A stretch of 47,440 nt of DNA from Rhodospirillales bacterium (GTDB lineage: Bacteria > Pseudomonadota > Alphaproteobacteria > Rhodospirillales > UBA2165), in contig DUBF01000215.1 of assembly GCA_012960465.1 (NCBI GenBank), forward strand, positions 1-47,440. The letters run 5' to 3'. How positions within the stretch are numbered: the first letter of the stretch is position 1; each line of letters begins with the position of its first letter. Positions 21,579 to 24,566 of the stretch are shown here, piece after piece. A program made the translations under genes and the position numbers. The notes beneath the pieces are model-generated. The model saw nothing but the letters and a program-made list of their open reading frames with translations, made no database searches and was not told where the DNA came from.

Positions 21579-21959
21579 ATGACCAAGGAATTATTTGTAA
21601 ATGGCACGTTGATGAAAGATCTTGCGCTTCATAGAAATTTGGCTGGGGCCGAGTTTTTGGGCGAGTTTGAGACAGAACGGCGTTATCGTCTTTATTCTAT
21701 CAATGATGAGCACCCAGGGATGTTTGAAGTTCAAGAAGGTGGTGTTGCGGTCGCCGGCGAAATGTATCGTATGAGCGACGAGATTTGGCAACAAGTTGAA
21801 GAAGGTGAGCCGCCGGATCTTTATTGTGGTCCGGTAAAGTTGGCGAATGGTCAGATGGTCGATGGTATTTTATTTGATCGGGAAATTGCCCAAGCTCATC
21901 ATAAAGATATCTCAGAGTATGGTGATTGGAGAAAATATATAAGGTCTAAAAACAAATAA
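21579..21959 (+). CDS. Gamma-glutamylcyclotransferase-fold protein, allophanate hydrolase C-terminal-like
   Basis: A 126-residue single-domain protein. LFVNGTLMKDLALHRNLAGA (5-24) followed by EFLGEFETERRYRLYSI is the pattern of the gamma-glutamylcyclotransferase-like fold, and in detail recalls the C-terminal domain of allophanate hydrolase rather than classic cyclotransferases. The late residues MVDGILFDREIAQ fit the same family. It has no amidase domain, so it cannot itself hydrolyse allophanate by the known route. The gene lies 89 bases upstream of a biuret-hydrolase-like amidase and may share a transcript; the neighbourhood suggests a urea- or biuret-related role, which is inference. Confidence 0.7.
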   Translation: MTKELFVNGTLMKDLALHRNLAGAEFLGEFETERRYRLYSINDEHPGMFEVQEGGVAVAGEMYRMSDEIWQQVEEGEPPDLYCGPVKLANGQMVDGILFDREIAQAHHKDISEYGDWRKYIRSKNK

Positions 21960-22048
21960 TTTTTGGGTCGAGTATTGTGATAATTTGAAAAAATTGATCG
22001 ATATGTTATATTTTGTAGTATTAATCATATTAAAGGGCAGGAAGAAAT

Positions 22049-22726
22049 ATGTCTCAGTTAACAACCATTGACGCCGAGCCATACGCGCTTTCGTTTGAGA
22101 CAAAGACAACAGCTCTCTTGCTTATCGACATGCAGAGAGATTTTCTTGAGCCGGGCGGTTTTGGAGAGATGCTGGGCAATGATGTTTCTCTTCTTAGAAA
22201 AACAATCGAGCCCTGTAAAGCAGTTCTAAAGGCAGCTAGAAAAAGCGGGTTGACGGTTATTCATACCCGCGAAGGCCATCGTCCTGATCTAACAGATGCA
22301 CCTTTAAGTAAATTGAATAGAGGTAATTTGGCAACGGGGATAGGTGATGAAGGCCCGATGGGTCGCATTCTTATTCGAGGCGAAATTGGTCACGACCTTA
22401 TTCCAGAGTTAATGCCGACTGATGGCGAGCCGGTAATCGATAAGCCTGGGAAAGGCGCATTTTATGAAACTGATTTGCATTTAATTCTCCAAAATCGAGG
22501 GATTAAGACGCTGATTGTATGCGGCGTAACAACTGAAGTGTGTGTCCATACAACTGTCCGTGAAGCCAACGATCGCGGCTATGAGTGCATTGTATTGGAA
22601 GACTGCGTTGGCAGTTATTTTCCTGAATTTCATAGCGTAGGTATTACAATGATAAAAGCACAAGGAGGAATTTTTGGCTGGGTGTCTGATGCTAAATCGG
22701 CTATCTTGGCAATTACTAACGGCTAA
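22049..22726 (+). CDS. Cysteine hydrolase, isochorismatase family, biuret hydrolase (BiuH)-like
   Basis: A 225-residue amidohydrolase of the isochorismatase-like family. The catalytic triad is visible as Asp27 (LLIDMQRDF), Lys132 ([10 protein letters not shown]) and Cys165 ([11 protein letters not shown]). Beyond the triad, [11 protein letters not shown] (71-81), [23 protein letters not shown] and [10 protein letters not shown] (171-180) recall biuret and triuret hydrolases as I remember them, and Gln205 (KAQGG) sits where BiuH has a substrate-contacting glutamine. Those enzymes turn biuret into allophanate and ammonia. A GGCAGGAAG ribosome site precedes the ATG. It lies between the allophanate-hydrolase-tail-like gene and a permease. 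Related ureido or amide substrates remain possible. Confidence 0.75.
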
Positions 22727-22739
22727 ATTTCTTAGTCTC

Positions 22740-22755
22740 TATTATTATAATAATA
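22740..22755. promoter_or_regulatory. Perfect AT-only palindrome before the permease gene
   Basis: TATTATTATAATAATA is a perfect 16-base palindrome 48 bases before the permease ATG. It contains a TATAAT-like string and could be a promoter element or operator, but AT-rich spacers produce such repeats by chance. Confidence 0.25.
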
Positions 22756-22802
22756 AGTCTAAAATGCGTGAAGTATATTTAAACAGTTAAGGGAATAGAA
22801 TC

Positions 22803-24338
22803 ATGAGTAGTAAAACACCTTTATGGTCATCTGGCGATCTTAATGCTTTTTTTGGCCTTGGAACTAACGTTCTTGTTAATTTGCTAGTCCTAACGGGGCT
22901 ACTAAAATATGTTATAAAAATTCCAGATGTAATATTATTTGGCCACATTCTACCCGCCGTTGGCCTGATGTTATTTCTTGGTAATATTTACTATGCCCTT
23001 ATGGCGAAAAGATTGGCGGATAGCACCGGACGATCCGATGTCACCGCGCTACCATCCGGACCAAGTGTACCACACATGTTTATTGTGGTTTTTGTCATCA
23101 TGTTGCCGATTGCCATCCAAACCAAAGATCCAATTAAAGCTTGGGAAGCTGGGCTAGCATGGGTGTTTATTGAGGGTATTGTTCTATTTGCTGGAGCTTT
23201 TATAGCGCCGACTATTCGGCGTTTAACACCACGGGCAGCTTTATTAGGAACGTTAGCTGGTATTTCAATCACTTTTATTTCTCTCAGACCGGCGATGGAA
23301 ATTTTTGAAACACCCATTATTGGCATGATTTCATTGATTATTATTTTAGGTGCTTGGTATGGTGGTGTAAAATTCCCCGGTAAACTACCTGGTGGTTTAG
23401 TTGCAATTGGTGTTGGTACTCTTCTTGCCTGGTTAAGCTATTTATTTGGTTGGGGCTTTGGAGGAATGAACCCGGCGGCAGTACAAAGTTCTTTAGGAAA
23501 CATCGGGTTTTCTGTGCCATTGCCTGCTTTTGGTCATGTATTTTCAGGATTTGAATTTTTGGCCTTCATCGTAGTAACCGCTATTCCTTTCGGTGTTTAT
23601 GATTTTATTGAAGCTATGGATAACGTGGAAAGTGCTTCCGCAGCTGGTGACGAGTATAGCGTTAAAGAAACACTGATGGCTGAAGGTAGTATTAGTCTTG
23701 TTGGTACATTGCTGGGCAGCCCATTTGCTAATGCAGTTTATATTGGTCATCCCGGCTGGAAATCCATCGGAGGCAAGATTGGCTATTCCATAGTGACTGG
23801 CATCATGGTACTTGCCTTAACTTGGTTGAGTGTTGTCTCGTTATTACTCGATCTCATTCCTGTCGTCGCAATTATTCCAATTTTACTCTATATTGGAGCT
23901 TTGATCGGAGCACAGGCGTTTCAAGCAACACCCTCTAATCATGCGCCTGCAGTCATTTTTGCCTTTGTGCCTCATCTTGCAGCTTGGGCTAAGACATTGA
24001 TTGATGGAGCCCTTGGGGCAGCGGGTACAAACGCTGGAGCTGTTGGCATGGGTAAGCTCGCACAAAATGGAGTACTTTACAAAGGCCTCGAAGCCCTAGG
24101 TGGCGGTGCTATTATTACCGGTCTTATATTTGGCGGTATAGTTGTCATGTTAATTGATCGCAAACCAAATGGCGCAGGAGTATTCTGTCTTATTGGTGCC
24201 GTGTTAGCGTTCTTTGGGTTCATACACGGGCCCGCCGTTGGTATGGCTGTTTCGCCAATGATTGCTCTGAGTTATGTCCTTATGGCAGTTATTTGTTTTG
24301 GCTTTACTAAAATGGAGCTTGAGGCGCCAGACGCTTAA
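22803..24338 (+). CDS. NCS2-like (xanthine/uracil/azaguanine type) permease
   Basis: A 511-residue membrane protein with 13-14 hydrophobic segments, in the broad nucleobase:cation symporter-2/AzgA group. Family-like parts are GRSDVTALPSGPSVPHMF (about 75-92), the conserved acidic PFGVYDFIEAMDNVESASAA segment (about 262-281), where substrate and proton are handled in relatives, and GTLLGSPFANAVYIGHPGWK. The substrate should be a small nitrogen-rich compound, but the sequence does not say which. It follows the biuret-hydrolase-like gene by 76 bases and is closed by a strong terminator, so gamma-glutamylcyclotransferase-like protein, hydrolase and permease probably form one unit. Confidence 0.75.
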   Translation: MSSKTPLWSSGDLNAFFGLGTNVLVNLLVLTGLLKYVIKIPDVILFGHILPAVGLMLFLGNIYYALMAKRLADSTGRSDVTALPSGPSVPHMFIVVFVIMLPIAIQTKDPIKAWEAGLAWVFIEGIVLFAGAFIAPTIRRLTPRAALLGTLAGISITFISLRPAMEIFETPIIGMISLIIILGAWYGGVKFPGKLPGGLVAIGVGTLLAWLSYLFGWGFGGMNPAAVQSSLGNIGFSVPLPAFGHVFSGFEFLAFIVVTAIPFGVYDFIEAMDNVESASAAGDEYSVKETLMAEGSISLVGTLLGSPFANAVYIGHPGWKSIGGKIGYSIVTGIMVLALTWLSVVSLLLDLIPVVAIIPILLYIGALIGAQAFQATPSNHAPAVIFAFVPHLAAWAKTLIDGALGAAGTNAGAVGMGKLAQNGVLYKGLEALGGGAIITGLIFGGIVVMLIDRKPNGAGVFCLIGAVLAFFGFIHGPAVGMAVSPMIALSYVLMAVICFGFTKMELEAPDA

Positions 24339-24351
24339 CTCCAAAAATTTA

Positions 24352-24393
24352 ATTGGGCTGGTCGAGATTTCTTGGGCCAGCCCGATTTTTTTT
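24352..24393 (+). terminator. Strong intrinsic terminator after the permease
   Basis: ATTGGGCTGG pairs with CCAGCCCGAT (one G-T pair) around a loop of about 13 bases, followed by a run of eight T residues. It begins 14 bases after the permease stop and clearly ends that transcript. Confidence 0.92.
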
Positions 24394-24419
24394 AGAGAAT
24401 AATAAAGTAATTTCTCTAA

Positions 24420-24566
24420 CTATTAACTTTCAGCACAATTTTACCCGTTGGTGACTTTGCTGGCGAGGTTATTGGATTTGATTACCGCAAGGGGATTATT
24501 ACCAGGCCTGATGATTTATATAATGATTTGAGCCCTACTTCTGGGACTCATGCTACCAAAAAGTAA
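24420..24566 (+). pseudogene. Orphan C-terminal coding remnant
   Basis: Between the permease terminator and the DapA-like gene a 48-codon frame without a start codon reads like a real protein end: the peptide includes GDFAGEVIGFDYRKGIITRP followed by DDLYNDLSPTSGTHATKK and a stop. Polar, motif-like composition with few rare codons contrasts with the AT-rich spacer around it. It has no ribosome site and follows a strong terminator. I read it as the surviving 3' end of a deleted gene; I do not recognise the family. Chance remains possible. The rest of the 24394-24691 spacer shows nothing else. Confidence 0.4.

Follow-up and report, generated by a model that had tools for sequence, protein, structure and literature searches.

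Which substrate does a compact set of three genes in a Rhodospirillales bacterium (assembly GCA_012960465.1, contig DUBF01000215.1) take up and degrade, and where would its pathway end? The genes follow each other on one strand within a stretch of DNA of 47,440 nucleotides, which is referred to as the window, and they encode a stand-alone version of the tail domain of allophanate hydrolase (AH_C), a cysteine hydrolase and a membrane transporter (Table 1). A preliminary description of the sequence had proposed a biuret/ureide-type uptake and hydrolysis module with a BiuH-like amidase, departing from the known cyanuric acid route. From the analyses reported here we conclude that the module is real and conserved, and that it is a TrtA-type triuret module rather than a BiuH-type one, the identity of the hydrolase being well supported by its sequence. 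The departure from the cyanuric acid route was supported as well, and so was the ureide-type uptake and hydrolysis module, though with triuret as the expected substrate. Beyond this, we lean slightly towards the view that the three genes encode the first part of a pathway for the use of triuret, the second part of which (allHFGK and urease) is encoded elsewhere in the genome.

TrtA converts triuret to carboxybiuret and ammonia and feeds a hydrolytic route via BiuH and AtzF (PMC7948467). The window hydrolase contains the isochorismatase domain PF00857 (162.2 bits, cut-off 27), and its residues D27, K132 and C165, which had been pointed out before together with two sequence segments that are both present, align with the TrtA triad D24, K129 and C162. 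The name BiuH-like, in contrast, had to be given up. On the BiuH equivalog model NF050097 the protein scored 277.9 bits, under the cut-off of 370; in a tandem BiuH-TrtA locus (L136), which served as a control, BiuH scored 413.5 bits and the adjoining TrtA 239.2 bits, so that the model separates both enzymes in this example. The best solved chain was TrtA 6xix with 281.6 bits, compared with 242.2 bits for BiuH 6azo and 238-250 bits for the solved BiuH chains overall. Fourteen positions, comprising active-site residues and the six residues discriminating TrtA from BiuH that are named in PMC7948467, were checked in an alignment of 160 hydrolases, from which identical sequences had been dropped, and all 14 carry the TrtA letter in the window protein. 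This includes the discriminating residues F35, N41, A134, E160, Y187 and I205 as well as Q202, and the BiuH consensus was found at none of the six discriminating positions. The TrtA pattern DQFFNEKKAECYQI is present in 102 of the 160 rows, TrtA 6xix among them, and the BiuH pattern DQFYYEKKSDCTQV in 38, among them BiuH 6azo.

The hydrolase tree, the supports of which are single values (SH-aLRT by the description of the tool) that were verified as splits, assigns the window protein to the TrtA clade (111 leaves, support 99) and not to the BiuH clade (40 leaves, support 91). Within the TrtA clade, a classical group with 6xix (20 leaves, support 99) stands beside a sister group that contains the window protein (91 leaves, support 84); one member of the clade, L151, does not show the TrtA pattern. 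Near hydrolases of the window group, loci such as L087 and L126 encode another hydrolase that shows the BiuH pattern. Cut-off, residues and tree thus led us to reject BiuH as an assignment, and RutB was rejected as well (121 bits, cut-off 378). With a score under the BiuH cut-off and the residues of TrtA, the protein is expected to act on triuret, and we consider it well supported that the window hydrolase is TrtA-type with triuret as its predicted substrate. It shares the family of isochorismatase-like cysteine hydrolases, the triad, the substrate contacts and the six specificity residues with TrtA of Herbaspirillum sp. BH-1 (PDB 6XIX; PMC7948467), and with BiuH (PDB 6AZO; NF050097) it has the domain family and the triad in common, without the BiuH residues.

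In allophanate hydrolase the AH_C domain is the one that decarboxylates. The N- and C-terminal domains of this enzyme catalyse sequential reactions (PMC5770610). As had been proposed, the first gene product of the window resembles this tail: it matches PF21986 (AH_C), the family of the C-terminal domain of AtzF, with 108.2 bits (cut-off 27). On the allophanate hydrolase model TIGR02713 it reached 57.6 bits, over the tail part only and under the cut-off of 511, compared with 817 bits for the AtzF protein of L047 as a control. The AtzF amidase domain is absent from the tail protein and from the 7 other surrounding proteins scanned, in agreement with the preliminary description. The nearest solved chain was 5c5z with 82 bits; 5c5z itself resembles the AH_C protein of an E. 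coli plasmid locus (L132). We compared 20 stand-alone or TrtA-fused AH_C rows (19 distinct, L055 and L190 being the same contig) with 10 AtzF tails. Seventeen positions are conserved across both groups, and positions 10, 11, 41, 43, 45 and 77 separate them. N8, T10, L11, D43, H45 and E77 occur in all 20 rows, the window included, and all 10 AtzF tails have A10, H11, I77 and R or K at position 45; at positions 8 and 43, only the stand-alone group is invariant. Because several positions are fixed differently in each group, the stand-alone AH_C is, judged by these residues, a subfamily apart from the AtzF tails. As a guess, the change at position 45 would suit a monocarboxylate substrate, either carboxybiuret or allophanate, better than a dicarboxylate. 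A tie between AH_C and the hydrolase is apparent from their fusion in two species of Cupriavidus, namely C. agavae (L068, 9635-10699, 354 aa) and Cupriavidus sp. 2SB (L074, 9614-10681, 355 aa), each as a single uninterrupted open reading frame (ORF).

The transporter had been called NCS2-like, which stands at the level of the fold and fails at the level of sequence. No family was matched in Pfam at E 1 or in NCBIfam at E 0.1, and none of 38 members of this permease family matches PF00860 (NCS2) at E 0.1; a single Pfam match among the 38, at E 0.09, is to an unrelated family, and the permease of L213, used as a control, scores 254 bits on PF00860. The predicted structure (mean pLDDT 86.4) aligns with UraA 5xls at Z 24.4 and 3.1 Å over 318 residues with 16% identity, covering model residues 5-374 and barely those after about 375. 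As far as this model goes, NCS2 likeness holds at fold level only (UraA fold, SLC23/SLC26/SLC4 type). Tandem permease copies were seen in L060 (2283-5524), L064 (5491-8707) and L069 (8780-12030), the distant copy being 43-47% identical to that of the window.

The conservation of this neighbourhood was assessed in relatives. For each of 84,980 species, one genome was scanned for hydrolase relatives, which yielded at least 592 stretches and at least 580 relatives, of which the best 80, with identities of 66-81%, were tabulated (some of the loci and genomes named here overlap, e.g. L049 and L156). Among these best 80, 60 loci have a permease homologue no more than 2 kb away from the hydrolase, a stand-alone AH_C was counted in at least 21 (with matches without an ORF in L065 and L126, and fused forms in L068 and L074; one AH_C query behind this count, taken from L126, has 7 stops), and AH_C, TrtA and permease occur together in several. 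The three genes thus belong to a recurring neighbourhood, and the neighbourhood check that could have refuted the preliminary description left it standing. In L049 the row reads AH_C, TrtA, permease, AllH, AllF, AllG, AllK, with AllH, AllG, CoA-ligase and amino acid kinase domains detected by Pfam, and L056 keeps the same order up to AllG, where the contig ends. The complete row AH_C-TrtA-permease-AllH-AllF-AllG-AllK is also present in G290, a genome of the same genus as that of the window. On a conjugative E. coli plasmid (NC_023327.1, L132, 8995-17173) we found TrtA-AllH-FdrA-AllG-carbamate kinase-AH_C-cytosine permease-LysR, and a Photobacterium plasmid has this type of row as far as the permease. 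A hydrolase match at E 1e-30 is present in 291 plasmid records; 78 of these come from Escherichia, and one of the 78 was inspected.

Several further arrangements were noted. L110 (6441-14995, Anaerolineae) encodes AH_C, TrtA, BiuH, AllFG and an ABC transporter and is the only one of the best 80 loci with both AllFG and BiuH. L179 (82-7598) contains AH_C, AllFGK, a creatininase-family enzyme and, by eye, a transposase-like ORF; no TrtA match was found in its genome. In L213 (3378-16001) AH_C-AllHFGK adjoins a PF00860 purine/uracil-type permease and ORFs that by eye are xanthine dehydrogenase-like; these neighbours hint that the substrate may derive from purines. Among 18 tandem BiuH-TrtA loci (L136-L149, L172-L175), 10 have a ChrR-type cupin behind TrtA, for instance at 9936-10220 of L136. 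We suspect this cupin to be a candidate for the carboxybiuret decarboxylase TrtB, the family of which is not stated in the literature sections available.

The remaining parts of the proposed pathway are encoded in the same genome, outside the window. Contig C41 carries AllK, AllG and AllF with 55%, 61% and 51% identity to the L049 proteins, in addition to AllH, and its AllG is the only match in the genome at E 1e-30. A tree of 44 AllG proteins places it within the main TrtA-linked AllG clade (33 leaves, support 89), apart from AllG of E. coli K-12 and from YahG. A urease alpha subunit was detected as well (984 bits, cut-off 680). The classical completion of the triuret path by BiuH and AtzF was not found in this draft genome, which is estimated to be 98.8% complete: eight isochorismatase-family matches include a single TrtA/BiuH-type hydrolase at E 1e-40 and no BiuH, and no allophanate hydrolase exceeds the TIGR02713 cut-off of 511, the best match reaching 201 bits. 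The best amidase, on contig C103, was rejected as AtzF; flanked by two ORFs that by eye resemble GatC and GatB, it is probably GatA.

Co-occurrence was analysed for 41 related genomes, that of the window included, with window-type TrtA defined by at least 75% and close AH_C by at least 64% identity. AllG was present in all ten genomes with window-type TrtA (in G304 as two part-matches) and in 5 of the 31 others (G300, G302, G309, G322 and G328), two of these 31, G292 and G317, having only distant TrtA/BiuH-type matches of up to 58% identity. Close stand-alone AH_C was found in nine of the ten and in 1 of the 31 (G308), and in the tenth TrtA genome, G301, a full AtzF adjoins TrtA. The sets are split in three different ways with the parts kept, namely AH_C-TrtA-permease and AllHFGK in the window genome, TrtA-permease and AH_C-AllHFGK in G313, and TrtA-AllHFGK and AH_C in G124. 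Another 289 genomes of the class, drawn separately, were searched for stand-alone AH_C of at least 64% identity, which occurred in the window genome and four others; two of the four, G187 and G124, also have TrtA, and in a third, G027, AH_C adjoins AllFGK with no TrtA match in the genome.

Gene content around TrtA was compared for those 76 of 108 TrtA-type rows with a locus that offered 5 kb on both sides; the AH_C query of L126 with its 7 stops was left out here. AllFG and BiuH occur together in one of these full-flank loci (L110), AllFG without BiuH in 24, BiuH without AllFG in 26 and neither in 25. Stand-alone or fused AH_C accompanies 17 of the 25 loci with AllFG and 5 of the 51 without. 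AH_C of this kind and AtzF were each found singly, in 22 and 14 loci, and never together, and the cupin of classical TrtA loci is absent from all 25 AllFG loci and present in 13 of the 51 others. The two groups of the TrtA clade differ in their surroundings: BiuH, in many cases AtzF, and an ABC transporter of the Bmp type accompany classical TrtA, and loci of the window clade often have the UraA-fold permease, stand-alone AH_C and AllHFGK.

How could these proteins act together? In the proposed pathway, the permease would import triuret, and the TrtA-type hydrolase would convert it to carboxybiuret, releasing the terminal ammonia. The stand-alone AH_C may then strip an N-carboxylate as CO2, and an AllFGH-type carbamoyltransferase, for which the set on C41 would be the partner of the window genes, may take biuret or carboxybiuret as its substrate and pass the terminal carbamoyl group on to phosphate. 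The N-carbamoyl amide of both compounds is chemically comparable to that of the AllFGH substrate. Two orders are conceivable. Either AH_C would turn carboxybiuret into biuret, which AllFGH would split with phosphate into urea and carbamoyl phosphate, or AllFGH would act first, yielding allophanate and carbamoyl phosphate from carboxybiuret and phosphate, followed by the conversion of allophanate to urea and CO2 by AH_C. With AH_C, either order would give urea, CO2 and carbamoyl phosphate; if AtzF took the place of AH_C in the second order, allophanate would be broken down to ammonia and CO2. AllK would use carbamoyl phosphate to form ATP, and urease would split urea. Altogether this would amount to a phosphorolytic, ATP-yielding triuret route with a re-tooled AH_C, AllFGH as a new biuret/carboxybiuret carbamoyltransferase and an uncharacterised family of UraA-fold transporters, also present on E. 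coli plasmids with a cytosine-type permease instead; for this full scheme we claim tentative confidence that stays somewhat short of an even chance.

The substrate of AH_C is the point at which the hints conflict. The AH_C-TrtA fusion favours carboxybiuret, and allophanate is favoured by the replacement of AH_C by AtzF (L047, L048, L058, L157, L188) and by six BiuH loci that carry AH_C. This conflict has to be held against the proposed route, together with a number of further points. The stand-alone AH_C does not have the residues that are invariant in AtzF tails, so that a decarboxylase role is not simply inherited, and AllFGH is known with oxalurate and oxamate only. The window group is sister to, and outside, the characterised TrtA subclade, and its substrate could have shifted; to our knowledge, this sister group has no characterised member. 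The set on C41 may serve a different ureide: a second isochorismatase-family gene adjoins its AllH (L134, 10829-11515; no NCBIfam match at E 1e-20), the next ORF being aminotransferase-like by eye, and the closest row to its AllG in the tree is that of G302, a genome without a TrtA match that has C41-type AllHFG and a shortened AllK and no AH_C. AllG of four TrtA loci (L069, L091, L104 and L110) lies outside the main TrtA-linked clade. AH_C is further encoded without a TrtA match in G007, on a short contig, and without TrtA or AllG in G308. Because 19 of the 76 full-flank loci hold TrtA and permease only, TrtA often lacks these partners nearby. Lastly, descent has to be considered. The related-genome profile takes no account of it, nor do the Fisher values for the co-occurrence counts, which are not taken as proof. 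The distribution of AllFG can be explained by as few as 3 changes on the tree, and for AllFG versus BiuH, AH_C or cupin the number of independent pairs was 2 if supported branches alone are counted and 3 if all are. For AH_C versus AtzF the corresponding numbers were 3 and 9, and significance is out of reach in each of these comparisons. Since too few independent pairs are left once descent is counted, the locus tables do not prove that AllFG and BiuH exclude each other.

Three other explanations were weighed against the proposed pathway. If the window hydrolase were BiuH, the path would end at allophanate, which decays to urea. Homology to the solved BiuH chains and to the BiuH model speaks for this, and the score under the cut-off, the six discriminating residues, all of TrtA kind, and the position outside the 40-leaf BiuH clade speak against it, as does the occurrence of window-group hydrolases near a second hydrolase of BiuH pattern; we regard this explanation as very improbable. 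Triuret might instead be hydrolysed and the path stop at biuret through spontaneous decarboxylation, with AH_C and AllHFGK being mere neighbours for other ureides. Carboxybiuret indeed loses its CO2 spontaneously, the half-life being about 20 min (PMC7948467); spontaneous loss of CO2 gives biuret from carboxybiuret and urea from allophanate (PMC6219798). Both the loci with only TrtA and permease and the AllFGK-type genes without a TrtA match in G302 and G027 are consistent with such a stop. Set against this are the AH_C-TrtA fusions, the presence of AllG in every TrtA genome of the related set and the retention of the module parts even when they are split across contigs, and we therefore consider a stop at biuret unlikely.

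Oxaluramide is an amide that resembles triuret in shape and a product of purine oxidation. The hydrolase might make oxalurate from it, and AllFGHK would then act in its known oxalurate role. This would be in keeping with the fact that AllFGH is characterised solely as an oxalurate/oxamate carbamoyltransferase (PMC11326118), and with G313, in which AH_C-AllHFGK adjoins a PF00860 permease and, by eye, xanthine dehydrogenase-like ORFs. However, this explanation leaves AH_C, or AtzF in its place, without a task, and the TrtA residue set is kept. Moreover, the 26 full-flank loci with BiuH nearby and no AllFG come from the window and the classical groups alike, and most AllG proteins of the modules branch separately from AllG of E. 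coli K-12, the oxalurate form. From these results we judge a role in oxalurate formation to be quite unlikely, and the triuret pathway proposed above remains our preferred reading.

The carbamoyltransferase of the proposed pathway has a characterised relative, since subunits homologous to AllFGH/AllK of E. coli K-12 (PMC11326118) are encoded in the rows of the relatives and on C41. The E. coli enzyme interconverts oxalurate and oxamate plus carbamoyl phosphate, as measured from oxamate and carbamoyl phosphate, and is unlike known transcarbamylases according to its discoverers (PMC11326118). In contrast to the K-12 genes, the TrtA-linked AllG forms a separate branch and is linked to TrtA rather than to allantoin genes. 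A co-location of trtA/biuH with allFGHK was reported for comammox bacteria, and of biuH with allFGHK for ammonia-oxidising archaea (PMC12625717), where these clusters are read as two adjacent pathways, one for triuret/biuret and one for oxalurate; the sections of that paper that were available mention neither the stand-alone AH_C nor the window-type permease. Another apparent case of the plasmid-type operon of L132 is GR 29 of E. coli BEN2908, which includes a RutB-like hydrolase and homologues of FdrA, DUF1116, carbamate kinase and CodB and is read as serving pyrimidine use (PMC12928451), whereas the hydrolase of the L132 plasmid homologue sits in the TrtA clade. In the open-licence literature, triuret with carbamoyl phosphate or biuret with carbamate kinase led to PMC12625717 only, and triuret with transporter and allophanate to PMC7948467, PMC12625717 and PMC9800807 only, as far as these could be consulted; no paper on the function of the stand-alone AH_C tail was found there, judged by title. 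If the proposed pathway is correct, a route ending in carbamoyl phosphate would make triuret a source of energy besides nitrogen, the stand-alone AH_C family would gain a function and the substrate range of the AllFGH carbamoyltransferase would widen. The E. coli operon and the nitrifier clusters, read so far as pyrimidine or oxalurate use (PMC12928451, PMC12625717), would likewise receive a new reading.

The organisation of the three genes as consecutive genes on one strand, closed by a terminator, was confirmed. The gaps between them measure 89 and 76 bases, and the hairpin behind the permease gene, which has a T run at its 3' end, folds with -23.1 kcal/mol compared with a mean of -10.2 kcal/mol for shuffled sequences (z -4.8; 0 of 200 shuffles equal it). 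By the consensus scan alone, terminator-like sites in the region are near expectation (4 vs 3.3), and promoter-like sites occur at about chance frequency (11 vs 9.3). The hairpin occupies the position at which, in L049, L056 and L186, allH starts about 0.1 kb after the permease gene.

Table 1 Features of the three-gene set, with positions counted from the first letter of the window.
Feature	Positions	Strand	Basis and proposed role
Stand-alone AH_C domain protein, 126 aa	21579..21959	+	PF21986; subfamily apart from the AtzF tails; putative N-carboxylate decarboxylase
TrtA-type cysteine hydrolase, 225 aa	22049..22726	+	PF00857; TrtA residue set and clade; proposed triuret hydrolase
UraA-fold membrane transporter, 511 aa	22803..24338	+	Fold match, no Pfam/NCBIfam match; proposed triuret importer
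Intrinsic terminator hairpin with T run	24345..24397	+	Folding energy compared with shuffles

Between the terminator and the next gene of the window lies an open stretch of 48 codons (24420-24566), which is possibly a gene remnant.

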